Part shown: positions 1 through 17,098 of the stretch, piece by piece
Position numbering within the stretch: the first letter of the stretch is position 1
Layout of the letters: each line of letters opens with the position of its first letter
Source of the DNA: a virus
Length of the DNA: 22,199 nucleotides
Strand: one strand, 5' to 3'
IMG/VR virus record: IMGVR_UViG_3300028844_002685
Location: 1-22,199 of that record
Program-made: the position numbers and the translations under genes
The notes under the pieces: model-generated
Database searches by the model: none
What the model was told of the DNA's origin: nothing
What the model saw: the letters and a program-made list of their open reading frames with translations, nothing else

Positions 1-3000
1 AAGCAGCGCAGGTGCTCGGCAACCTGATTGCGTCTTCAGATGAAAACCCAGGCAAGGTCACCATTGCAGGTAATAAGGGCAAATCAAAAGTAATTGACCT
101 TACCGACAACGACTTTCAGCAAGCGAAGAAAGGCGATGAAGGCGCAGGTGCCATTGGGCACGGTGTTCTTCAGGAGCACGCTAAGGAATTCTTTGATGGC
201 GATGACGACGACGTTATTGACTCTTTTCGTCTTGGCGACGAGGGTCCAGAAGTAGACCCAGATAACTTCAATCAGTTGTCTTGGAGTACAAAGGATAAGA
301 CAGACCCAAACAAAAAGAATGAGCACACATTAAACATTCCTAAAGCGCCTAAGATGGAATCGCCGCTGACTGATCCGACCGCTTCGGGTACTTCACGCAA
401 CATGGCTCGCATGGGGCAAGCGTCTCGTGTTATCGATGAATCTGGCGCTAAGAACTTAGTAACAGGCGCTCTGAAAGCGGGTGGGCCTAAAGGCCAAGCC
501 GTGGCAACAGGCATAGACGGTAGTTTGGCCGCAGCGCAGTTCGTTGGTGATTACGGACCAATGGCTGACAAGGTTATGGGACCAGGCGTTAGGCGCGCTT
601 TCTATCGTTACAGCGGTAAAGAAAAGACGCCTGAAAAGGCAATGGTCAACACCATGCGCGCTGACGTTCGGGGAACGGAGTCACCTCAAGAAGCGCGCGA
701 TGCCATCTTTGTGCCACGCATGGAGACCAAAGTTACGTCTGAGGGTTACGAAGACGTACCTGTGCCTAGCAAGACGATGCGGTATTGGCAGAAGAAACTG
801 CCAGATGTTGAACTACTGAATCTGCACACTTCCTCTGGCGCTACACCTCCTAGCGAGGGTGTCATTCTGGACAAAAACGGCAAAGCAGTAGCGATGTCAG
901 TGGGTAGCCACGATGACCATTACCTGCCTTTCAACCTCAAGAGAATGAACCGGGCCAAGGGCGGAGAGTACATTCGTACTCGTTCCTTGGGTGGTTTGAC
1001 TAGCGAGGATATTGATGGCGGCATCATTGGCGGTACCAAAGGTGTAACCGTTGTGTCGCACAGTGGCGTTTTCACCATGCAGTTCTCGCCAAGTGGCAAA
1101 GGTTCGCTATCTAAAGCGCGTCGCATGAAAATGCGTAAGCGTTACGAGCAATTGGTTGATTCGCTTGCATCCAAGAAGGTCAACGTCGGTCAGGTGCCTA
1201 AAGACCGTAGAGATGAGTTGCAGGCACAAGTTGAGCGTCAGATGCCTGGTACTACCGCTGGTGTTGTTAGGCAGCGTAAAGCAAGGATGCACGATCTGCT
1301 GAAACAAGAGCAAGAGACACCACAGCCCAGCACAGAGCGTAAGGCCGAGTGGACTGAGGAATTCTTGCGTCAGCAGGGCGAAGAGTGGACTGACAAGGGC
1401 GGGGAAGAACTTGGCGCAGATCAACTACGCGAGGAAGTACGCGCTCAGGCTCGTAGGAGAAAAGATAAGACCCTACGCAGCGATGAAGAGATCATCACCG
1501 AAATGGGTGCGTCTGACAAATACGAGAAGTTCATGCGCCAAAAAGAAGGTGAATACAGCACCGCTCTTGGACCGCTACGCACTAATGGCGCTGGTTACTA
1601 CAAAGCGATGCAGGCTCTTAAAGAGCAGTTCCCTTACGACATTGCTGAAGTCAACTGGACACCGCCGGATTCGACTAGCGTTGGCTCTGGCGCTACCGAT
1701 CCTGGCTATGTGAAGGCTAAGCACAATCGGCCTGACAAAGTTCTGACTGGTTTCTGGGATTCAGAGATTGAGGGCCAGAAGAACACCAAGGGCAAACTCA
1801 AGGGAACAGGCAAGCGCAAGGCTTCTGCTGATAACTACGCCAACTCTTTCAACAGAGAACGCTTACGCAACATCAAGGATGAAGGGGCTGATGCTGGCCC
1901 AAAAGGTGAGGGCGGCAGCGCCGCCAGCGCCAGTTCAAGCGTTAGCGACGACGATGTAAGTTACGGCGGTGGGGGCGAGGGTTACGAGGGTTACACCTCG
2001 TCAGGTATTACTTCAGGCAGGCTAGGGCCGAAATACAGCCAGTTCCGGCCAATGGAGAGTGCCAAAAATATCCAAATGACTGAGTACCAGAAGGTAGATC
2101 AGTTGATGAAGATTCGGCGTGCCCTAAAGAACGTCGGAACTATCACTTACATTCAGACTACTGGGAATGGAAAAGAGAAGGTAACTTTCGATCCCTGGGA
2201 TACCGATAGCGATTCTAACCAGACAGCAAACGACAACTACCCGAACCTGTTTGCTCCCATGAGCAATGGCGACTTCGATGAAAAACTGCAAACCGATGAG
2301 GAATTTGCAAACAAAGTTCAAGAAGAAGTCCAAAGCCTTTACCAAAACAGTCAGAAGAGTGATCGCGGTATTGCACAACCTCTTGCTCGTAAGTTGTCAG
2401 AAAGACAACTCTTTGATGGTCTTGTTGTTGTAGACGGCAAGGCAGTAGGTGCTGCCAAGAACCCAACTACCGCTTTGAGTCTGGTCAATTCGCTGCAAAG
2501 CGGAGAACCTTCTAACTGGGACTTCACTTCAGGCGACTTGGACGGAAGCCTGTACTTGCCTGGACTAGCCCAACGTGAGCACAGAGCAGCATGGCACGCT
2601 GATTCGGACATTGAAACTTTCGCCGCACAGTCGCAGCGACGCTTTGGCATTGAGATTACCGACAAGACCGACCCGCGCACTATTCGTCGCATGTCAGTGA
2701 AGTTCGGTGACGCAATGCGCGAGGGCTTGGATTCGGTAGCCAAGTGGAAGAAGCAGATCGCTGAGGCAGGTGGGCGCGCTGAAGAGGTCAGTGACCAGTC
2801 TCTAGTCAAGTACGGCGGTGAGACATACTCCATGTTTGCCGCTAAAGAACTTGAAAACCAGATTGCTCAAGACGCTTTGGGCATGGCGAAGATCAAGCAG
2901 TTGCGCCAGGTCATTCGTGAGTCTAGTGAGAAGGAATACGAAGACAACGAAGAGATGAAAGAAATCTCTATCGAGGACATCAAGGAGATGCGATACGAGG

Positions 3001-3929
3001 ATCATCAGCGCGATCCACGGCTCGTTGGCTCGCTCAAGACACCTAAGCGCGGTACTAACCAGAAGAAACTGGACTCTGCCAAGCAGAACTTGGACAAACT
3101 TGTTGGCTTGGGTGAGGTGAAGGGCGAACTAGACTCTCTTATCTCTGACGCTAAAGTGAGCGCTCAGCGTAAAGATCAGGGCTTGAAGAGCAGCAACAAG
3201 ACGATGCACTTGGTCTTCACTGGCAATCCCGGTACTGGTAAGACCACCGTTGCTAACGAACTAGCGCGCGCATACAACGCTCTTGGCCTGATTCCTAGTG
3301 ACAAGGTAGTAGTGGCTAGCCGAGCCGATCTCGTTGGTCAGTACGCCGGTCACACCGCTACCAAGACGCGGAGTAAGTTCAACGAAGCCAAGGGTGGCGT
3401 TCTGTTCATTGACGAGGCGTACTCACTGGTAAACAGCAACGACGACACTTTCGGCTTTGAGGCTGTGGATGAGTTGGTTGCTCAGTCTGAGAACAACCGT
3501 GACAACACTGTGGTCATTATGGCTGGCTACAAAGACGACATGGGGCGCTTGATGGGTGCCAACCCAGGCTTGAAGTCACGCTTCCCACGCACTATCGACT
3601 TCCCTGACTACAAAGCAGGTGATCTGAAAGAGATTCAGGCTCGTGGTGTTAAAGAGGCTGATTACGAGTACTCAGGTGGCGTAGAAAGCAAACTAGAATC
3701 CATAACGCGCAAGATGGTGAATCAGCCCAATTACTCCAACGCGCGTGATGCTAGGAACTTCCGCGAGATGATGTTCAGCGCGCAAGCACAGCGCGTCAAC
3801 CGTGACTTTGGTGACAATGCCACCAGGGAACAACTCATCACTATTACCCCAGAAGACGTAGACATCGCTGAGAAAATGTACTTCAAGCAACGCACAGGCG
3901 GCATTACTAAACGTTTGGAACGAATATGA
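1..3929 (+). CDS. Giant phage head-module protein with C-terminal CbxX/EccA-type AAA+ ATPase (5' partial)
   Basis: The frame is open to the window edge and codes Ala-Ala-Gln before the first internal GTG (12), so the true start is probably upstream. Numbering from that GTG gives 1305 residues. Residues 1060-1220 form a full CbxX/CfxQ AAA+ domain: Walker A GNPGTGKT (1071-1078, Lys1077), pore loop GQYAGHT (Tyr1111), Walker B VLFIDEAYSL (Asp1134, Glu1135), sensor 1 VVIMAGY (1167-1173), and NPGLKSRFPR with the likely Arg finger at 1190. The family includes EccA of type VII secretion and Rubisco activase CbbX, ring ATPases that remodel proteins. Residues about 265-375 (SEGVILDKNG, DDHYLPFNLK, RTRSLGGLTSEDI) look like a conserved phage region of unknown role. 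A Gly/Ser-rich linker lies near 633-670. It overlaps the next gene by ATGA. The role in the virion is unknown; an injected or assembly-related remodelling ATPase is inferred. ATPase domain very sure; function uncertain. Confidence 0.85.
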   Translation, partial: AAQVLGNLIASSDENPGKVTIAGNKGKSKVIDLTDNDFQQAKKGDEGAGAIGHGVLQEHAKEFFDGDDDDVIDSFRLGDEGPEVDPDNFNQLSWSTKDKTDPNKKNEHTLNIPKAPKMESPLTDPTASGTSRNMARMGQASRVIDESGAKNLVTGALKAGGPKGQAVATGIDGSLAAAQFVGDYGPMADKVMGPGVRRAFYRYSGKEKTPEKAMVNTMRADVRGTESPQEARDAIFVPRMETKVTSEGYEDVPVPSKTMRYWQKKLPDVELLNLHTSSGATPPSEGVILDKNGKAVAMSVGSHDDHYLPFNLKRMNRAKGGEYIRTRSLGGLTSEDIDGGIIGGTKGVTVVSHSGVFTMQFSPSGKGSLSKARRMKMRKRYEQLVDSLASKKVNVGQVPKDRRDELQAQVERQMPGTTAGVVRQRKARMHDLLKQEQETPQPSTERKAEWTEEFLRQQGEEWTDKGGEELGADQLREEVRAQARRRKDKTLRSDEEIITEMGASDKYEKFMRQKEGEYSTALGPLRTNGAGYYKAMQALKEQFPYDIAEVNWTPPDSTSVGSGATDPGYVKAKHNRPDKVLTGFWDSEIEGQKNTKGKLKGTGKRKASADNYANSFNRERLRNIKDEGADAGPKGEGGSAASASSSVSDDDVSYGGGGEGYEGYTSSGITSGRLGPKYSQFRPMESAKNIQMTEYQKVDQLMKIRRALKNVGTITYIQTTGNGKEKVTFDPWDTDSDSNQTANDNYPNLFAPMSNGDFDEKLQTDEEFANKVQEEVQSLYQNSQKSDRGIAQPLARKLSERQLFDGLVVVDGKAVGAAKNPTTALSLVNSLQSGEPSNWDFTSGDLDGSLYLPGLAQREHRAAWHADSDIETFAAQSQRRFGIEITDKTDPRTIRRMSVKFGDAMREGLDSVAKWKKQIAEAGGRAEEVSDQSLVKYGGETYSMFAAKELENQIAQDALGMAKIKQLRQVIRESSEKEYEDNEEMKEISIEDIKEMRYEDHQRDPRLVGSLKTPKRGTNQKKLDSAKQNLDKLVGLGEVKGELDSLISDAKVSAQRKDQGLKSSNKTMHLVFTGNPGTGKTTVANELARAYNALGLIPSDKVVVASRADLVGQYAGHTATKTRSKFNEAKGGVLFIDEAYSLVNSNDDTFGFEAVDELVAQSENNRDNTVVIMAGYKDDMGRLMGANPGLKSRFPRTIDFPDYKAGDLKEIQARGVKEADYEYSGGVESKLESITRKMVNQPNYSNARDARNFREMMFSAQAQRVNRDFGDNATREQLITITPEDVDIAEKMYFKQRTGGITKRLERI

Positions 3930-4720
3930 TTTCCGCATTCGGAGTAGAGCACGGAGATTCTATCTCCAAAGCGGCTCTCTACGAAAACTACACAGAGGGT
4001 TTGCGTCGTCAGGGCGGCGTGCTTAATGAGGCAGCCATTCATAACATTCCGAGGAACAAATACAAGCGCGCTGGTAACAACGTGTACGCAAAAGAACGTA
4101 AGTTAGTCGGAAGACGGAATTCCAAAGAATACGTTAAGCAGACTGTTGCCGACAATAAGGGCAGCAAGAACAAACTTTATGTCAAGACAGGTTACGCCGG
4201 TAACTTGGCTGGCCTAAGAGGTCTGACTACAGGCAGCCAGGAACACAAGACTGCAAAAATTGATGCTTACCCGGCCCTGATGCCCACTGCTAAGAATCGC
4301 CTCAAGACCAAATACATTGCTACTCACGAGCATCAGCACGCTAAGGATATGGCCGGTCAAAAACATTACGACAAAGACATTAAGAACGCCAAGGCTTATG
4401 GCAACAAGCAAGTCAAGCCGGGCAAGAACAAATTTACCGACACCTTAAAAGACTTTAAGCGCACGAAGCATTTCAACGAACAAATGCAGCGAAATCGTGC
4501 GGTGTTGGAAGGAAAGGCCGATAAATCGGCTTCCCAGAAGCACCAAATGCCTGCGTGGAAGGCTTCTGCCTACCCACACATGGCACGCAACGATAAGAAG
4601 ATATTCGGCGCTGGTTATGTCAAGGGCGGCGGTCAGCAAGTTCCAAAGAAGCGCGCAGAGAGAAAAGCAGGCAGGCAGAGTTTCAAGGAAGCGGTGCTTC
4701 GAGAAAAGGGCAATAGGTGA
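3926..4720 (+). CDS. Basic protein with HExxH zinc-metallopeptidase (zincin-like) motif
   Basis: 264 residues, strongly basic. Residues 134-138 read HEHQH within YIATHEHQHAKD, matching the HExxH zinc-binding and catalytic motif in a helix-like setting preceded by hydrophobic residues. A second motif, VLEGKAD (Glu195), lies 57 residues after the last His and resembles the 'EGxAD' element that supplies the third zinc ligand in gluzincin-type peptidases. The rest is Lys-rich and looks poorly ordered, especially residues 225-264. The start ATG overlaps the stop of the AAA+ gene (ATGA), and the stop overlaps the GTG of the MuF gene (GTGA), so the three genes are probably translationally coupled. 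Packaged zincins occur in phage polyvalent proteins; here a protease that is packaged, or that processes head or host proteins, is inferred. I do not recognise a named family, and a non-catalytic structural role remains possible. Confidence 0.72.
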   Translation: MISAFGVEHGDSISKAALYENYTEGLRRQGGVLNEAAIHNIPRNKYKRAGNNVYAKERKLVGRRNSKEYVKQTVADNKGSKNKLYVKTGYAGNLAGLRGLTTGSQEHKTAKIDAYPALMPTAKNRLKTKYIATHEHQHAKDMAGQKHYDKDIKNAKAYGNKQVKPGKNKFTDTLKDFKRTKHFNEQMQRNRAVLEGKADKSASQKHQMPAWKASAYPHMARNDKKIFGAGYVKGGGQQVPKKRAERKAGRQSFKEAVLREKGNR

Positions 4721-8910: not shown

Positions 8911-9318
8911 ATGGCATATGAAGAAGGATTGCGGTCTATCACGCTAGTAGCGGATTCGACCCTAGCCGCTTACACCGGAGTACCGGGTCTGCCCGGCTCA
9001 CCGTCGCCGCATGGCGCTAACCAGTATTGCTTCGTGCGAGTCACTGGTGCCAAGCAGGTTGGGCTGGCTGATGAGTCAACTCCGACCGTTGGTGTGTTGC
9101 AGAACAAGCCGCAGACTAATGGCTCTGCTGCAACTGTAGCCATTCGTGGTGTGTCTAAGTGTGTTGCTGGCGGTGCTGTTAACGCTGGTGATTCGGTCAA
9201 GGTCAACGCCGCTGACGGCAAGGCCGTTACCGGAACGGGCACTGACACAATTGTTGGAATCGCTCTTACAAGTGGCTCGGCAGATGAGATTATCTCCGTG
9301 CTCCTGAGTGTGAACTGA
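8911..9318 (+). CDS. Capsid decoration (DUF2190-like) protein
   Basis: 135 residues, small, beta-rich and Gly/Ala/Val-rich. The internal pattern (VGVLQNKPQTNGSAATVAI, then GGAVNAGDSVKVNAADGKA, then a final VGIAL and SVLLSVN) is that of the DUF2190 / phage cement protein group, which binds the outside of the mature capsid and stabilises it against internal DNA pressure. The ribosome site AAGAAAGGA lies about ten bases upstream of ATG 8911. The gene sits directly before the major capsid gene, the usual place for decoration proteins. No signal peptide or membrane segment is seen. Confidence 0.78.
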   Translation: MAYEEGLRSITLVADSTLAAYTGVPGLPGSPSPHGANQYCFVRVTGAKQVGLADESTPTVGVLQNKPQTNGSAATVAIRGVSKCVAGGAVNAGDSVKVNAADGKAVTGTGTDTIVGIALTSGSADEIISVLLSVN

Positions 9319-9334
9319 GAATAGGAGATAGAAA

Positions 9335-10333
9335 ATGCCAAGTCCGGCACAGAGCGATCTTCATGTCAACGCGCCGTTGACCAATGTATCGGTCGCTTAT
9401 ATCCAGAATACGGCTGACTTTATTAGCAGCAAGGTATTCCCGAAGGTGCCAGTAAAGAAGCAGTCTGATCTTTACTGGAAGTACAGCAAGTCCGACTGGC
9501 GACGTACCGACGTTGCGAAGCGTGCTCCATCAACCGAGACCCCAGGTGTCGGCTGGAAAATGGATACCGACACGTACTTCGCGCATGTGTACGGCGTTCA
9601 CAAAGACATTGACGATCAGGTTAGGAGCAATGCGGATTCCAACTTCCGGGTTGATTCCGATGCGACCAAGTTCGTCACCAACCAGTTGTTGCTGAAGCGC
9701 GACATTGACTGGACTGACCGTTTCTTCCAGACTGGCGTTTGGGATACGGAATTTGCTGGTGTGGCTAGTGCGCCCGCTGGTCCTCAGTTCCTACAGTGGA
9801 GCGACGATGCTAGCGACCCCATCAACGATGTGTCGAAGTGGGTAATGGATTTCCGTCAGTTGACGGGCTACACCCCCAACACCATCGTTGCGGGAGCGCA
9901 GGTGATTCGGGAACTCAAGAACCATCCCGACATCATCGACCGGATCAAGTACACCCAGCGCGGCATTGTGTCGGAAGACCTGATCGCCACGCTGTTCGGT
10001 GTAGATAAGATTCACACCGCTCTTGCTACCAAGGCTGTCACTCCTGAGACCACCGACGCACGGACTCAGGATGCAGCGGCAACTTACGAGTTCATCGCTG
10101 ATGAGCGTTCGATGTTGCTGTGCTACTCCGCACCGTCGCCGAGCCTGATGACTCCGACTGCGGGTTACACCTTCACTTGGGACGGTTACGCTGGCGGCAA
10201 CGCTGAAGGTATCCGTATCAAGAACTTCCGCCAGGAGCACATTGCTTCTGACCGGATCGAGGGTGAGATGACCTACGACATGAAGGTTGTCGCCCCCGAC
10301 ATGGGGATTTTTGCTACCTCGGTAGTTTCATAA
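9335..10333 (+). CDS. Major capsid protein
   Basis: 332 residues. The N-terminus (LHVNAPLTNVSVAYIQ), then FISSKVFPKVPVKKQSDLY and KRDIDWTDRFFQTG, match a widespread phage major capsid group presumed to have the HK97 fold. It forms the hexamer and pentamer shell of the head. AGGAG about seven bases before ATG 9335 is a strong ribosome site, and the strong terminator just after the stop suggests a highly expressed message end. Neighbours agree: scaffold and decoration genes before, head-tail connector genes after. No N-terminal delta domain of the fused HK97 kind is apparent, consistent with a separate scaffold gene. Confidence 0.93.
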   Translation: MPSPAQSDLHVNAPLTNVSVAYIQNTADFISSKVFPKVPVKKQSDLYWKYSKSDWRRTDVAKRAPSTETPGVGWKMDTDTYFAHVYGVHKDIDDQVRSNADSNFRVDSDATKFVTNQLLLKRDIDWTDRFFQTGVWDTEFAGVASAPAGPQFLQWSDDASDPINDVSKWVMDFRQLTGYTPNTIVAGAQVIRELKNHPDIIDRIKYTQRGIVSEDLIATLFGVDKIHTALATKAVTPETTDARTQDAAATYEFIADERSMLLCYSAPSPSLMTPTAGYTFTWDGYAGGNAEGIRIKNFRQEHIASDRIEGEMTYDMKVVAPDMGIFATSVVS

Positions 10334-10341
10334 CTGAATAG

Positions 10342-10378
10342 GGGAGGCTGGCTCGTTTGGGTCAGCCTCCCTTTGTTA
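10342..10378 (+). terminator. Rho-independent terminator after the capsid gene
   Basis: GGGAGGCTG (10342-10350) pairs perfectly with CAGCCTCCC (10363-10371). Four further pairs, two of them G-U type, extend the stem to 13 with a GTTT loop (10355-10358). TTTGTTAT follows directly. The next ribosome site begins only six bases after the T-rich run, leaving no room for a promoter, so downstream genes probably depend on readthrough. Confidence 0.85.
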
Positions 10379-10394: not shown

Positions 10395-10766
10395 ATGGCA
10401 CGCAAGCAACCTGTTGGATATGTCGTTAGACGACCGATGACGCTGTGGGGAAAGAAGCGCGAGATCGGTGACATTATCAAAGTCGAAGACAACAAGCGTT
10501 CACGCTCACGCTTTGATACCTTGGTCCGTGCCGGTCGCCTCAGTGAGATTTTTGACGAGACCGATAAGGGTCTAGTCGTTAAGGGACGTACCCGCCAAGA
10601 AGGTGAAGTCTTCTCACTCGACGAGAAGCCGAAGGCCAAGGCTAAGGCCAAGCCCAAGGCTGCGCCGAAGGCCAAGGACAAGGCTAAGGCTGCACCGAAG
10701 GCCAAGGATGAACCGAAGGCCGAGGAGTCCACCGAGAAAGCCACTCGTGGTCGTCGTTGGGCGTAG
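10395..10766 (+). CDS. Small virion-associated protein with Lys/Ala/Pro-rich tail
   Basis: 123 residues. Residues 1-52 form a compact domain (MARKQPVGYVV, LW at 17-18, IGDII at 24-28, AGRLSEI near 46-52). The same domain opens the 770-residue protein encoded next, so the two genes share an ancestor. The C-terminal half (about 77-120) is a low-complexity Lys/Ala/Pro tail encoded by degenerate AAGGCC and AAGGCT triplet repeats, including a 24-base near-identical repeat. Such tails are flexible and can bind nucleic acid or acidic surfaces. The gene begins straight after the terminator following the capsid gene. The stop is TAG, and the frame continues for 21 sense codons to TAA at 10832 (see separate entry). 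No named family recognised; a minor head or neck protein is inferred. Confidence 0.75.
   Translation: MARKQPVGYVVRRPMTLWGKKREIGDIIKVEDNKRSRSRFDTLVRAGRLSEIFDETDKGLVVKGRTRQEGEVFSLDEKPKAKAKAKPKAAPKAKDKAKAAPKAKDEPKAEESTEKATRGRRWA
10656..10709 (+). repeat. Tandem repeat coding the Lys/Ala/Pro tail
   Basis: A 24-base unit at 10656-10679 recurs at 10686-10709 with one difference inside and one at its end (30-base period). Shorter AAGGCC/AAGGCT units flank it. This is the kind of repeat that changes length by slippage, so tail length may vary between relatives. Confidence 0.7.
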
Positions 10767-10832
10767 TGGTGGTCGGAACTGAAGGTGGCTAAGAAGCCAG
10801 TCAAAAAGACTGAGGACGAAAAGACTGAGTAA
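10767..10832 (+). other. In-frame Lys/Glu-rich extension after a TAG stop (possible readthrough tail or tiny ORF)
   Basis: Directly after TAG (10764-10766) the same frame stays open for 21 codons and ends at TAA 10830-10832. It would add a tail ending VAKKPVKKTEDEKTE, similar in composition to the tail of the upstream protein. A GTG at 10785 could also start a 15-residue peptide, with GGAACTGAAG weakly resembling a ribosome site. It may be leaky readthrough, a decayed longer C-terminus or chance. Low certainty. Confidence 0.25.
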
Positions 10833-10834
10833 CT

Positions 10835-13147
10835 ATGGCTAGACGAATCCCGTTAGGGTACATAGTCGTCCAGCCTTTTCATCTGTGGGATACCAATTTT
10901 GGTATTGGCGACATCATCGCGTTTGATGAAATCAGGTCGCAAGAGCGCCTGCAAATTCTGTTCAATGCTGGCGCGCTAGAGATTGCCTATAAAGAAGCAG
11001 ACAAGGTATCTGTCTTCTACAACCGTGAATCGCGGCGAGACGAAGACAAAGACGGTACTTTCCCGCTCGGCTCTCTCACCAGTATCAAATCTACGTCTCG
11101 CGTATCAGACGTAGAAGTAATACAGCCCATGATTGTTGATCTGAACAGTTTCTTTAGGTTTTATTACCGGCAAGGTGCTGTTGTTGCCGACATCACAGTT
11201 GTTGTAGTGCCAGTCATCAAGCCTGAGTCCATTGAGTCCGCGAGTACCGTCTCAGACATCAGTTTCGGCACAACGTCCTACGTCGATGTACCGTCAATCA
11301 CCACTACAGCGCGCGTCAGTGGAATCACTGTAAAAGCGGGCATTGGCGTTGATGTCACATCAGTGCCTATGAGTTGGTGGGTAAATAACGTCGAAATTGC
11401 TAAGCGCGTGAATGTTGACAGCATTGCGCCTTTGAGTGCAGTCAGCGACATTAAGCGCACCAAGGAGATCACGCTTGAGTCAATACCGTCTACCGCTGCT
11501 GTATCTAGCATCACCTTTGGTATTACTCAGATCGTTGTGACCGTTAGTATCCCTAGCGCGCACTATGTCAACGATGCGTCCTTCATCAAGCAGGTTGAGC
11601 CTGACTCCATCGCTGCTCGCTCGTCAGTGTCGAGCATTGTTGCCGCACTTGCTCAGCAGATCACACTGTCGTCTGTGATACCTGTGACGACGATTTCAGA
11701 CATAGGAATCGACAAATTCAGAACGGTAACCAGCATCAGCGGAACCTCTAGAGTCTCTAGCGTCAGTTCAATGAGTTCTGTCGTTGCTGACCTGCACAGC
11801 ATCACCAGTACCGCAGTGGTCTTAGACATCACTACTGTGCTGAGCAAGCAGGTCTTTGCTATCTCTGTATCTAGCGAGGTGAGGGTTTCTGATGTCAGTT
11901 ATGCCACCAGTATTGTCGTTGCTGCTACGAGCGTTCCTCGCGTTGCAGACGGTGTAGAAAATGTTTCCATCACCAAGATCGCTGATGTTGATTCAGTACC
12001 TTCTGTATCGTCAGTCAGTAACGTCGTAGGACTAACGAGCGTTATTGCCGATCTGACGAGCATAGGTTCAACTGCATCTGTGTCAGGGATATTCATTGCA
12101 GGCGCAGCGATCATTACCCCAGTGGGCATACCGAGCACTTCAACAGTCTCGTCTGTCACTGTCGCAGTACCGACAGCAGTAGATGTAACGTCCGTGTCGA
12201 CCACAGCAAGTGTGGCAGACGTTACCTACAACAAGTCCAAGATCGTACAGACAACATCAGCCGTCAACGCAGCCATAGTGTCAGATGTTGTCATCATCCA
12301 GCCCATTCTAGTTGTACTACAGCCACGAGCACCTACGTCAACGGTCACGGATATTGCCGTGACCAAAATTGCGCTTCAAGTTTCACTGTCTTCAACTGCG
12401 TCAGTATCAAATGTATTTGTAGTAGTAGCACCCATAATCAATGCAGTCAGCATTCCTAGCACCGCTAGCGCGTCATCCGTCTTCGTAGTGAAAGCGCCAA
12501 GGGCCTATCTCACCTCGATTGCCAGCACCGCAACAGTGGCAGATGTGTCTTGGGAGAAGAGTCAAAGCCAGATAGAAGTAGATGCGACTTCAGCAGCAAC
12601 CACAATGTCCTTGTCTGACCCGTCATGGGAAGGGACTGAATTGGTGAGCGTTTCGTTGTACCCCACAGGACACACTGGTAGTCCGACTGCGACTACTCCG
12701 CTTGAAAATTCTTATGGCCCGCCCAATGACTTGTGGACTTCAAGTCCAACTAGCAACTGGCGTGTTCGTTGGACATTTACTATTCCTATGGGTGATCGTC
12801 CTGGCACAGTATTTGAGACAACTGATGACATTCAGACTGTGACGATGCTTGCGAGAAAAGCCGCTAGTGGCGCAAATAATCCGCGCCTTAGATACATGAG
12901 ATATTTCCAGGGCAACAGTTCTAAATACCAAGACGGAACCGTAACGAATCTTACTGATGCCAACTCTATTCCAGACGGATTAGAAATCGTGAGGACGTTT
13001 TCTACCGCCAATGGAACCCTGAATGACTTCTCCGACCTTGGTATCGACACCCAATACAATAAGCGCGGTAGGAATGCCAACCTGCGTGTTGCTGAGATGG
13101 ATTGGATCAGATGGGACGCGGTTTACAGGTTACGCTGGCCTCTGTAG
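10835..13147 (+). CDS. Large repeat-containing virion fibre protein, probably head-anchored
   Basis: 770 residues in three parts. Residues 1-52 (MARRIPLGYIV, LW at 17-18, GIGDII at 23-28, AGALEIA near 45-51) are homologous to the start of the preceding 123-residue protein. Residues about 80-583 hold roughly 23 copies of a ~22-residue repeat with the pattern S-[IV]-x-S-T-A-x-V-S-x-[VI]-x-[VFI], for example SIPSTASASSVFVV and SIGSTASVSGIFIA. The alternating apolar/polar pattern suggests short beta strands building an elongated shaft. Residues about 584-770 are a different domain rich in Trp, Tyr and Asn (LYPTGHTGSP, WRVRWTFTIP, RYMRYFQG), possibly a receptor- or glycan-binding tip. It lies between the capsid and head-tail connector genes, away from the tail-tip genes, so a capsid fibre is inferred; a tail fibre cannot be excluded. 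Confidence 0.75.
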   Translation: MARRIPLGYIVVQPFHLWDTNFGIGDIIAFDEIRSQERLQILFNAGALEIAYKEADKVSVFYNRESRRDEDKDGTFPLGSLTSIKSTSRVSDVEVIQPMIVDLNSFFRFYYRQGAVVADITVVVVPVIKPESIESASTVSDISFGTTSYVDVPSITTTARVSGITVKAGIGVDVTSVPMSWWVNNVEIAKRVNVDSIAPLSAVSDIKRTKEITLESIPSTAAVSSITFGITQIVVTVSIPSAHYVNDASFIKQVEPDSIAARSSVSSIVAALAQQITLSSVIPVTTISDIGIDKFRTVTSISGTSRVSSVSSMSSVVADLHSITSTAVVLDITTVLSKQVFAISVSSEVRVSDVSYATSIVVAATSVPRVADGVENVSITKIADVDSVPSVSSVSNVVGLTSVIADLTSIGSTASVSGIFIAGAAIITPVGIPSTSTVSSVTVAVPTAVDVTSVSTTASVADVTYNKSKIVQTTSAVNAAIVSDVVIIQPILVVLQPRAPTSTVTDIAVTKIALQVSLSSTASVSNVFVVVAPIINAVSIPSTASASSVFVVKAPRAYLTSIASTATVADVSWEKSQSQIEVDATSAATTMSLSDPSWEGTELVSVSLYPTGHTGSPTATTPLENSYGPPNDLWTSSPTSNWRVRWTFTIPMGDRPGTVFETTDDIQTVTMLARKAASGANNPRLRYMRYFQGNSSKYQDGTVTNLTDANSIPDGLEIVRTFSTANGTLNDFSDLGIDTQYNKRGRNANLRVAEMDWIRWDAVYRLRWPL
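11072..12583 (+). repeat. About 23 diverged ~66-base repeats coding the fibre shaft
   Basis: At protein level the unit starts with Ser-Ile/Val and ends 20-22 residues later in an aliphatic-rich stretch. The DNA copies are well diverged, so this is an old expansion under protein-level constraint rather than a recent duplication. The second unit is longer (about 30 residues) and atypical. Confidence 0.75.
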
Positions 13148-14524: not shown

Positions 14525-15013
14525 ATGGCATTTACTTATTCCAACGACCCAGCATCGTCTACACGGGATGCCATTCGCTTTTACTGTCAGGACACAAATG
14601 TAGACGACCCGCTGCTGCAAGACGAGGAAATCGACTTCCTCTCTGTTCAGTGGGTGCATGTGACCGAACACCCTATGTATCTTGCTGCGGTGGCTTGTGA
14701 GGCCATTGCAGCCAGGTTTGCTCGTGAGATTTCATACTCTGCTGATGGAATCAGCGTAGGGGCATCAGAACTACAGAATAAGTACAACCAACTTGCTACT
14801 GATCTGCGTGAGCAGCACAAGGCATCCGTCATTGGTAACGGGCCAGACATCAGCGGTATTTTGGTTGGCGCTGAACTAGACGACACCATCAAGCCGCTTG
14901 TTTGGGGTAAGGGGATGCACGACAACCCCGAAGCCGGTCGACAAGATTACGGTGGCGATAACTGGACCGACGACTGGTATCCAGAGCGCGACGGTACTTG
15001 GCCTTCGCGGTGA
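14525..15013 (+). CDS. Head-tail connector (adaptor, HK97 gp6-like)
   Basis: 162 residues. It opens MAFTYSNDPASSTRDAIRFY with DPLLQDEEIDFL near 28-39, a hallmark of the phage adaptor family, followed by a helical region with AAVACEAIAARFA and a Leu-rich helix (NQLATDLREQHKA). Adaptors form the ring that attaches below the portal and receives the stopper. The gene is followed after four bases by the stopper-like gene, the usual order of the neck module. The start ATG 14525 lacks a strong ribosome site and follows the previous stop by nine bases, suggesting coupling. Confidence 0.82.
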   Translation: MAFTYSNDPASSTRDAIRFYCQDTNVDDPLLQDEEIDFLSVQWVHVTEHPMYLAAVACEAIAARFAREISYSADGISVGASELQNKYNQLATDLREQHKASVIGNGPDISGILVGAELDDTIKPLVWGKGMHDNPEAGRQDYGGDNWTDDWYPERDGTWPSR

Positions 15014-15017
15014 TTCT

Positions 15018-15458
15018 ATGTATGGAGTCACACAGAGATCGCGTGAATATGTAAGGAACCGTGCTCAGCAGCACATGGAGGCCACCGTCAAGGTCTACAA
15101 GAGCGGTGATGTTGGCTTTGACCCAACTACCGGCATCTCTGTTTTCCCTGACCGTGAGCCGTATTACGAGGGGAAAGCGCGCGTCTGGCAGGTCAACGAG
15201 GGCGACATGGTTCTGTCTGGCGAGGCACAGATCACTCAGTTGACTACCAACATCTCAATACCGTGGGATGCACCAAGCCCTCGTAAAGACGACATCGTGG
15301 TTGTTGTATCCAATCCACCTGACACCAGGCTTGCAGACTGGGTGTTCCGCTGCGTCTATGTAGATGGTGGTGGCTACATTGGCGGTACGCGCCGGATGCG
15401 TACTACTGCTCTTACTGACTCCGCTAACTGGACTAACCGAGTTGAGGCTGGACCATGA
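15018..15458 (+). CDS. Head-closure / stopper-like protein (DUF6093-like)
   Basis: 146 residues from ATG 15018, four bases after the adaptor stop. The frame is open upstream to about 14898, but that part is only the shadow of the adaptor gene, so the short start is chosen. Features: MYGVTQRSREYVRNRAQQHM, then ATVKVYKSG, EGKARVWQVN, and a beta-rich C-terminal part with DDIVVVVSNPPD and WVFRCVYVD. This fits DUF6093-type neck proteins of phages of Gram-positive hosts, which occupy the stopper position and close the head channel after packaging. Stop overlaps the next start (ATGA). Confidence 0.75.
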   Translation: MYGVTQRSREYVRNRAQQHMEATVKVYKSGDVGFDPTTGISVFPDREPYYEGKARVWQVNEGDMVLSGEAQITQLTTNISIPWDAPSPRKDDIVVVVSNPPDTRLADWVFRCVYVDGGGYIGGTRRMRTTALTDSANWTNRVEAGP

Positions 15459-15973
15459 GCGGAGTAAATGTAAGCAGGGATAGAAACGATCCCATTGTGT
15501 ATTTTGAGGTCGATGATCTCGTCAAAGACCTAGCAACAATCTCAGATTTGCCACCAGAACAGATTACCGAAAATATCTTTGAGGACTTAGGCCAGCAGAT
15601 TGCTACCAAAGCCCAGCAACTAGCACCGCGCAAAACAGGCGCATTGGCTCAATCTATTAAACACACAGTTGTTAAAGGCGTTCAATTAGAAGTTGGCAGT
15701 GATCTTGAGTACGCAATGTTTCAGGAGTTTGGTACTGCGACTCGTGGTGAGTTCCCAGGTCAGCCGTACAAGATTCGCCCTAAGAAACCAGGGGGAAAAT
15801 TAGTCTTCAAGATTGGTAATAAGACCATCAGGACCAAGGAAGTAAACCACCCTGGTATTCCTGCCCGACCCTACATACGACCAGCGGCTTTAGAGGTAAT
15901 GGAACCAATGCTTGAAAAATTGTCAGAAAGAGGCCAAGCGTTTATCGTCAAAGGACCAAAGGCTAATTTCTGA
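15455..15973 (+). CDS. HK97 gp10-like neck / tail completion protein
   Basis: 172 residues. The core reads QLAPRKTGALAQSIKH (about 58-73), VGSDLEYAMFQEFGTATR, and PARPYIRPAALEVMEPML near the C-terminus. This is the standard HK97 gp10-like pattern: 'aPvxTGxLrxSI', 'Ya..vEfGT', 'PFlrPA'. The family occurs at the head-tail joint and supports tail attachment or completion. It overlaps both neighbours by 1 to 4 bases, in the usual adaptor, stopper, gp10, terminator order. Confidence 0.9.
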   Translation: MSGVNVSRDRNDPIVYFEVDDLVKDLATISDLPPEQITENIFEDLGQQIATKAQQLAPRKTGALAQSIKHTVVKGVQLEVGSDLEYAMFQEFGTATRGEFPGQPYKIRPKKPGGKLVFKIGNKTIRTKEVNHPGIPARPYIRPAALEVMEPMLEKLSERGQAFIVKGPKANF

Positions 15974-16431: not shown

Positions 16432-16619
16432 TGGCTACAATCACCATTAAAAATCCTCAGAACGGTGAAATCAGAGAGATTTCTCGCTCGGGTCTAGGCC
16501 CGTGGCGGCGTAAAGGCTGGATTTTGCTAGAAGAAGAGAAAAAGGGCTTGAACCCTTTGGCAAACTTAGTTACAGAGGCAAACGCTTCTGAAGATGACTT
16601 GGAAGGTGAGGAGCAGTAA
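16431..16619 (+). CDS. Small protein before the tail tube gene, function unknown
   Basis: 62 residues. An in-frame ATG at 16410 exists, but ATG 16431 is preceded by AAGGAATCTG and overlaps the previous stop (TGATG), so it is preferred. The sequence has an N-terminal strand-like part (MATITIKNPQNGEIREI), then GPWRRKGWILL, and an acidic C-terminus (ASEDDLEGEEQ). Small genes with a 'KGW' element are frequent in front of tube genes in siphophages, but no function is established that I can name. GAGGAG near its end serves as the ribosome site for the tube gene. Confidence 0.65.
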   Translation: MATITIKNPQNGEIREISRSGLGPWRRKGWILLEEEKKGLNPLANLVTEANASEDDLEGEEQ

Positions 16620-17098
16620 TGGCTCGCTTGATCCCCAATGAAAGCACATGGGTTGGCTGGGTCGCCAGCATTGCTGACACTACCGGCCTAACCACTACCG
16701 CTAGTGAGGTATCAGGAGCAACCGTGGTAACGCCGTGGTTGATTAGCCTGAACGCGACTTCGCAGGGAAACACTGTTCCTACGCCGTCGTTTGACACGCT
16801 GTTTGAGACCACCATTCCCGGTACCGTCTCAGCGCAGTTCTCGGCTGACTTCTACCGCGATGACGAGAATGATCTGGCATGGGACACGCTGCCGCGTGGT
16901 GTCACTGGATACTTCTTGATCTCACGCTTTGGCGGTAGCGGTACTGATAACTTGCCTCTTGCTGCTGATGAGGTTGAGGTATGGCCGGTCTCGGTGACCA
17001 GCCGCACCATGCAGAACATGGCATCCAATCAGGTGCTTATGTTCTCTGTGACCTGCTCGGTGCCAATGGAGCCTAACGAAGCGGCTACCATTTCCTAG
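16619..17098 (+). CDS. Major tail (tube) protein
   Basis: 159 residues, beta-rich. ATG shares one base with the preceding stop. The pattern of a tube protein is clear: N-terminal MARLIPNESTWVGWVASIAD, central TPSFDTLFETTIPGTVSAQFSADFYRDD, then GYFLISRFGG and VEVWPVSVTSRT, and a final strand LMFSVTCSVPMEP. It polymerises into hexameric rings that form the tail tube around the tape measure protein. Placement between tail terminator and tail assembly chaperone genes is diagnostic. Confidence 0.88.
   Translation: MARLIPNESTWVGWVASIADTTGLTTTASEVSGATVVTPWLISLNATSQGNTVPTPSFDTLFETTIPGTVSAQFSADFYRDDENDLAWDTLPRGVTGYFLISRFGGSGTDNLPLAADEVEVWPVSVTSRTMQNMASNQVLMFSVTCSVPMEPNEAATIS

Follow-up and report, generated by a model that had tools for sequence, protein, structure and literature searches.

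The subject of this analysis is the 22,199-bp virus record IMGVR_UViG_3300028844_002685 of IMG/VR, the whole of which is referred to here as the window, and a small protein domain that occurs twice in it, just downstream of the major capsid protein gene. The domain opens two consecutive open reading frames (ORFs), namely ORF a (10395-10766, 123 amino acids) and ORF b (10835-13147, 770 amino acids), within a gene order that resembles the head and tail region of a siphovirus. The reading that we favor, at slightly better than even chances, is that this domain serves as a docking module, small and rich in beta structure, by which accessory proteins are fixed to the virion, the capsid surface or the portal vertex being the most likely site, and that it has two users in this phage.

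The relatedness of the two N-termini was evident in several comparisons. In BLASTP, 29 of 71 residues were identical, with one gap (E 3e-12), and the Smith-Waterman score was 114, or 101 without the first four residues, as against a mean of 24.9 (standard deviation 4.5, maximum 52) for 5000 shuffles of the first 110 residues of ORF b. Chance similarity was ruled out by these results and by the pair-only profile test described below. When the window record was searched with ORF a, the matches were ORF a itself and ORF b (E 5e-10), and no others. An earlier interpretation made from the letters of the DNA, here called the sequence-only reading, had proposed a duplicated N-terminal domain of about 52 residues; the shared N-terminus was borne out by pairwise alignment, but the similarity reaches further, to about residue 70. 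The residues it had listed are correct, as both ORFs contain MAR(K/R)xPxGYxV, LW at 17-18 and IGDII at 24-28, with AG at 46-47 in ORF a and 45-46 in ORF b, and L at 49 and 48, respectively. Its placement of the pair straight after the capsid gene is also right, since ORF a begins 62 nucleotides 3' of that gene (9335-10333). Alignment of the two copies as DNA found an 8-base chance match only, so the duplication must be old, and a recent DNA duplication was ruled out. The features concerned are the following.

8911-9318, plus strand: cement or decoration protein gene, 5' of the capsid gene (Phage_cement_2, PF09956, E 2.7e-6; phrog_673, E 6e-19)
9335-10333, plus strand: major capsid protein gene (phrog_1005, major head protein, E 2e-82)
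10340-10373, plus strand: 15-bp stem-loop, terminator- or attenuator-like, directly 3' of the capsid gene
10395-10562, plus strand: putative docking domain, copy 1, ORF a residues 1-56 (pairwise similarity, profile, AlphaFold2)
10605-10763, plus strand: Lys/Ala/Pro-rich tail of ORF a, 53 residues with 14 K, 13 A and 5 P
10835-10999, plus strand: putative docking domain, copy 2, ORF b residues 1-55 (pairwise similarity, profile)
11249-12481, plus strand: repeat region of ORF b, V-S-D-V-like anchors each 20-22 residues (autocorrelation, anchor chain)
12632-13144, plus strand: C-terminal part of ORF b outside the repeats, about residues 600-770
14525-15013, plus strand: head-tail adaptor-like gene closing the interval (phrog_1732, E 2.5e-14)

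The last of these we take to be an adaptor gene from its position and its probable family, phrog_1732 being unnamed in PHROGs. Beyond its first domain, ORF b is rich in Ser, Val and Thr, with beta-type repeats; its autocorrelation peaks at lag 22, and 18 anchors form a chain over residues 139-549 with a spacing of 20-22 residues and two double steps. This cargo had no match in Pfam or PHROG and no credible one in NCBIfam. Neither ORF had a direct relative at E<=1 in 50,697 phage records or a match at E<=1 to the cement families PF09956 and PF22758, and the IMG/VR scans, in which close relatives only were detectable, confirmed none for ORF a or for either terminus of ORF b. The phage collection likewise held no near-identical relative of the window, and the genome-contig scan with the window capsid protein yielded one locus. 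Past the TAG stop of ORF a, an in-frame, Lys-rich open stretch of 21 codons was observed (10767-10832, plus strand), which ends in TAA 2 nucleotides before the ORF b start and may reflect either read-through or an ORF a tail shortened by the stop. TAG recoding was considered as its cause, and the other TAG-ended genes, having just short open extensions, gave no sign of it.

The domain was then followed through a sample of 80 IMG/VR loci that encode a capsid protein with 63-70% identity to that of the window; these loci together with the window made 81 sources and a pool of 7426 ORFs (7275 non-window). A profile made from the window pair alone found six non-window ORFs at E<1e-3, each lying shortly after the capsid gene. 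At the looser limit of E<=1 there were 13 matches, 13 of 13 post-capsid, against a background of 924 post-capsid ORFs among the 7275, and 30 column-shuffled pair profiles gave 10 matches in total, none post-capsid. The iterated profile collected 91 ORFs, of which 86 begin no more than 4.5 kb past the capsid stop and five elsewhere; these counts carry a bias in that the iteration was rebuilt from post-capsid matches only. A 31-row alignment of the domain, about 45 residues long and designated A2, matched 93 forward and 0 reversed ORFs at E<=0.01, and scored the window copies at 1.1e-14 (ORF a) and 7e-11 (ORF b), both being rows of A2. Six of the 81 sources had no adaptor within reach and were excluded; in 74 of the 75 that were left, with capsid and adaptor genes, the A2 profile located the domain between the two. 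Ninety-one domain ORFs lay inside this interval and none outside in the ORFs read, the inside count being partly circular because most A2 rows come from the same loci. The pair-only test and the zero outside count are free of this circularity. These counts include near-identical loci and a few overlapping frames, and the distinct domain ORFs number 72. Two or more copies were present in 11 of the 75 sources, among which the window has the longest capsid-adaptor interval (4192 nucleotides). In whole records, A2 matched 31 of 33 at E<=0.1, and 36 of the 37 domain places in 25 IMG/VR records were at most 3 kb downstream of the capsid gene on the same strand. A more divergent form occupies the first post-capsid gene of six loci, L004, L005, L010, L012, L015 and L016 (85.5%, E 5.7e-6). 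As a separate observation, two contigs of 106 and 136 kb (L018/L025 and L020/L023) each hold two capsid loci, about 67-69 kb apart, which may be joined genomes, concatemers or two viruses.

Five named phages, RHph_Y60, RDJL Phi 2, 9NA, Carvaje and KPP23, carry the domain in the gene that follows the capsid gene, annotated as hypothetical in all five; hhalign of the window pair against these five copies gave 92% probability (E 6.3e-7). The capsid proteins of these five carriers are 29-43% identical to that of the window, and their major tail proteins have no similarity to the window's. As the carriers share the capsid but not the major tail proteins, the domain travels with the head genes, which argues against a tail-tip site. 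This association would fit the capsid surface, the portal vertex or the neck alike, and cannot separate them. Several other candidates were set aside. Myophage E217, solved by cryo-electron microscopy, had no A2 match in its genome, and gp26, encoded after its capsid gene, scored nothing. The YuA genome was also unmatched, and its gp58, alike by eye, scored nothing. A fold match from VP882 (A2I2Y0) was rejected as a post-capsid gene, for its 51 amino acids fit gp27, before the sheath gene, and not gp10 (54 amino acids); the VP882 genome had no A2 match. The Douge cement protein and the Peru-2 vertex protein, described as helical and Ig-like in the accessible parts of their reports, were taken to be unrelated from these descriptions.

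Presence in a virion was suggested for one carrier. When viral models were searched for the fold of the domain, a 64-residue TP-84 protein came up (E 0.042), a length that fits the gene directly after the TP-84 capsid gene, annotated as structural protein, and A2 had one match only in the genome of Geobacillus phage TP-84, namely TP84_13 (E 0.0048). TP84_13 is likely a homolog of the docking domain. Like ORF a, it is a domain with a Lys-rich tail, encoded directly after the capsid gene; unlike the window, TP-84 has a single copy with no fiber partner, and its capsid protein is not detectably similar. In the accessible text of the TP-84 report, TP84_13 is among 14 proteins that mass spectrometry identified by two or more peptides in particles that had been purified (PMC5889276).

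The proteins that carry the domain are diverse. The 72 distinct domain ORFs comprise 13 with a short basic tail (ORF a among them), 14 with almost no tail, 19 with an acidic linker that ends in a K.RKGI-like motif, 16 with a long C-terminus (ORF b among them), and 10 of other kinds. A Pfam scan covering ten proteins identified CBM_4_9 in L023 (4e-18) and fn3 in L004 (5e-24), L015 and L016; in L009 and L024 an fn3/Ig-like stretch, as judged by eye, is apparently inserted between domain strands two and three, and these inserts had no Pfam match. The cargo types in the relatives are those of surface adhesins. The sequence-only reading had envisaged a module for attachment that serves by itself as well as anchoring a fiber; relatives that are bare, basic-tailed, acidic-linked or joined to fn3 or CBM_4_9 give good support to such modular use, while the physical contact that it implies is a prediction from sequence.

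Modular docking with cargo on phage heads is already known, and Hoc of T4 has a separate capsid-binding domain. According to the accessible text of one account, T4 Hoc, T5 pb10 and N4 gp17 are elongated, have Ig-like cargo and little effect on capsid stability, and aid adhesion, and the phi29 gp8.5 head fiber is an alpha-helical coiled coil (PMC7602432). Like Hoc, pb10 and gp17, the relatives of the window pair join one small domain to fn3 or CBM cargo. Unlike them, the cargo of ORF b is a repeat of 20-22 residues that is not Ig-like by Pfam, short and long copies stand in tandem, capsid binding in the window phage is our prediction, and no solved structure matches by sequence; the Ser/Val/Thr-rich, beta-type repeats of ORF b also differ from gp8.5. 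By analogy, the proposed module most likely works like Hoc, pb10 or gp8.5, homology to any of which was unsupported by the searches. Searches of the open-licence PMC literature on neck fibers, head fibers and Ig-like decoration, judged by titles and the beginnings of abstracts, turned up no description of this domain; neither it nor its tandem use, short and long, seems to have been described before.

Structure prediction was consistent with a small domain of mainly beta character. For residues 1-69 of ORF a and a 49-row alignment, AlphaFold2 returned a predicted local distance difference test (pLDDT) score that averages 75 and reaches 87-88 in three blocks of ten residues, and the element order E-E-E-E-H-E. 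By sequence, no credible solved structure matched ORF a, A2, the Carvaje copy or TP84_13. The best Foldseek match of the domain model in the PDB had an E of 0.39, and the best by VIA had a Z of 5.6 (52 aligned, 2.3 Å) to a GINS chain, followed by ribosomal L9 N-domains at about 4. No function was drawn from these fold matches because they are too weak for a 50-residue domain. The model of the C-terminal 271 residues of ORF b (pLDDT 34.9) was discarded. ORFs a and b had no match to the Pfam family DUF7210 (PF23843) even at E<=1; weak matches to it were seen in 2 of 31 members of the domain family (best E 0.0044), two other relatives scored 16.3 and 12.9 bits (gathering score 27 bits), and the fold search of viral models included entries named DUF7210 at E 0.085 and 0.15. 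No paper on DUF7210 was found in the open-licence PMC literature.

The stem-loop at 10340-10373 has a minimum free energy of -29.4 kcal/mol (z -4.5), and none of 200 shuffles was as stable. A comparable hairpin (z -3.3 or lower) was present in 37 of 61 distinct post-capsid windows of 60 nucleotides and absent in 24; these hairpins are GC-rich, lie directly past the capsid stop, and are mostly missing where the next gene starts at once. If the hairpin ends or slows transcription, ORFs a and b would be made below the level of the capsid protein.

In the docking mechanism that we propose, the domain would bind a site on the assembled head or portal vertex, and its duplication would have given the window phage two users. 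ORF a, the module plus a disordered, lysine-rich tail, would occupy the site as a small basic-tailed protein, whereas ORF b would add to the module a long stalk of beta-type repeats of 20-22 residues and a C-terminal tip, the latter contacting a host or environmental surface and holding the particle there. The sequences themselves show that the domain is shared, lies beside the capsid gene throughout the family, has been duplicated more than once, bears cargo that can be exchanged, and goes with the head gene set rather than with the tail-tube gene; the physical binding to the head, the fiber function of ORF b and the role of the ORF a tail are what we infer. Several results weigh against this proposal. 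The domain gave no fold match above chance level, no relative was found for ORF b beyond its first domain, and the copies in 9NA and Carvaje are annotated as hypothetical. Ottawa, Salgado and ValentiniPuff, which have related capsids, lacked the domain in the post-capsid genes tested (in the whole Ottawa record the sole match was partial, at E 0.006, and was treated as noise). One exceptional second copy, G012:30822-30950, is the N-terminus of a 213-residue protein (L091:6310-6951) and stands 25 kb away from the capsid gene, which shows that linkage of the module to that gene is not invariable. The available proteomics are mixed. In the accessible text, Table 1 of the TP-84 paper gives TP84_13 a time-course mark, although the text and the S5 legend list it for particles (PMC5889276); ORF088, the domain carrier of KPP23, is absent from nine virion proteins identified by mass spectrometry (PMC4031330); and gp75 of RDJL Phi1, which carries the domain, is outside the five proteins assigned to gel bands (PMC3070671). 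The sequence-only reading had held that the gene position favors the head, which is supported, for head or portal vertex as against the tail tip, by the 74 of 75 rule and by a domain that stays with the capsid gene while the tail tube changes, and is weakened by the G012 copy and the mixed proteomics.

The main rival to the docking module is a role in assembly: the short proteins would be assembly or packaging factors that touch the procapsid and are mostly not retained in the virion, and ORF b would be recruited by its domain to the same partner while the particle is built. Lambda gpFI is a model for such a packaging accessory, and the slot right after the capsid gene is that of the FI gene. 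The missing ORF088 of KPP23 points the same way, as do the basic tail of ORF a, which could touch DNA, and the 19 of 72 proteins with an acidic linker and K.RKGI-like end, which would suit a two-partner adaptor. We nevertheless regard this alternative as unlikely, given that TP84_13 is listed as a particle protein, that carbohydrate-binding and fn3 cargo would make little sense, and that a 770-residue repeat protein would be odd in that role.

A docking site on the neck, whether adaptor, stopper or upper part of the tail, with ORF b as a neck or side-tail fiber, would also suit genes that lie between the capsid and adaptor genes, because either neighbor could be the partner. Neck fibers are known in other phages, as far as the accessible text of the report goes (PMC10966104), and expression lowered by the hairpin below that of the capsid would fit a low-copy site; however, the domain is kept where the tail-tube protein has been exchanged, and several copies per genome with such diverse cargo would also suit a surface that offers many sites, so that we hold a neck site to be rather improbable. 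Highly improbable is an N-terminal anchor of tail-tip fibers whose gene position is historical. The G012 copy adjoins lysis-type genes, labeled endolysin-like and hydrolase-like by reading of the sequences, and unrelated fiber-like genes in the same Salgado slot are annotated as minor tail proteins; these would favor a tail tip, but 36 of 37 domain places are post-capsid and the tail tubes are unrelated across carriers.

A broader form of the docking proposal is possible, at well under even chances: a large group of uncultivated phages would have in common a socket linked to the head, on which appendages can be swapped, with two or three kinds of them per particle on one type of site. The domain of about 45 residues, placed on the capsid or beside it, would repeatedly have been duplicated, lengthened at one end or the other, or opened in the beta2-beta3 loop for cargo, which could be glycan-binding, fn3, repeat-fiber, basic or acidic, and the form with a basic tail might compete with the fibers or space them out. 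Post-capsid genes are usually left as hypothetical proteins; should the domain serve generally for docking to the head or portal, it would offer an annotation rule for many uncultivated phages, predict particle-displayed proteins and the glycans they may bind, and give laboratory phages a natural anchor for display fusions.

Elsewhere in the window, a Mu F-like minor head protein is encoded (Pfam and PHROG matches), two more ORFs lie between ORF b and the adaptor-like gene, and these are followed by a tail-completion-type gene (15455-15973) and the major tail protein gene (16619-17098, PHROG). The ORF at 12-3929, a head-region protein of 1305 amino acids, ends in an AAA+ ATPase and AAA_lid_6 (E 3e-16 and 9e-10), a fusion that is unusual for a phage head gene cluster. 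The next ORF, 3926-4720 (264 amino acids), had no Pfam family above the cut-off and contains the stretch ATHEHQH, which resembles the HExxH motif of zinc metallopeptidases. It also begins with the N-terminal tag M-x-S-A-F-G-V-(D/E)-H-G-x-(I/V)-S-K, found on 56 otherwise unrelated-looking ORFs of 62-486 amino acids in 34 of the 81 sources (L022, L042, L051, L061 and others) and on none of the 7426 reversed ORFs, which may be a targeting signal for the virion or procapsid.

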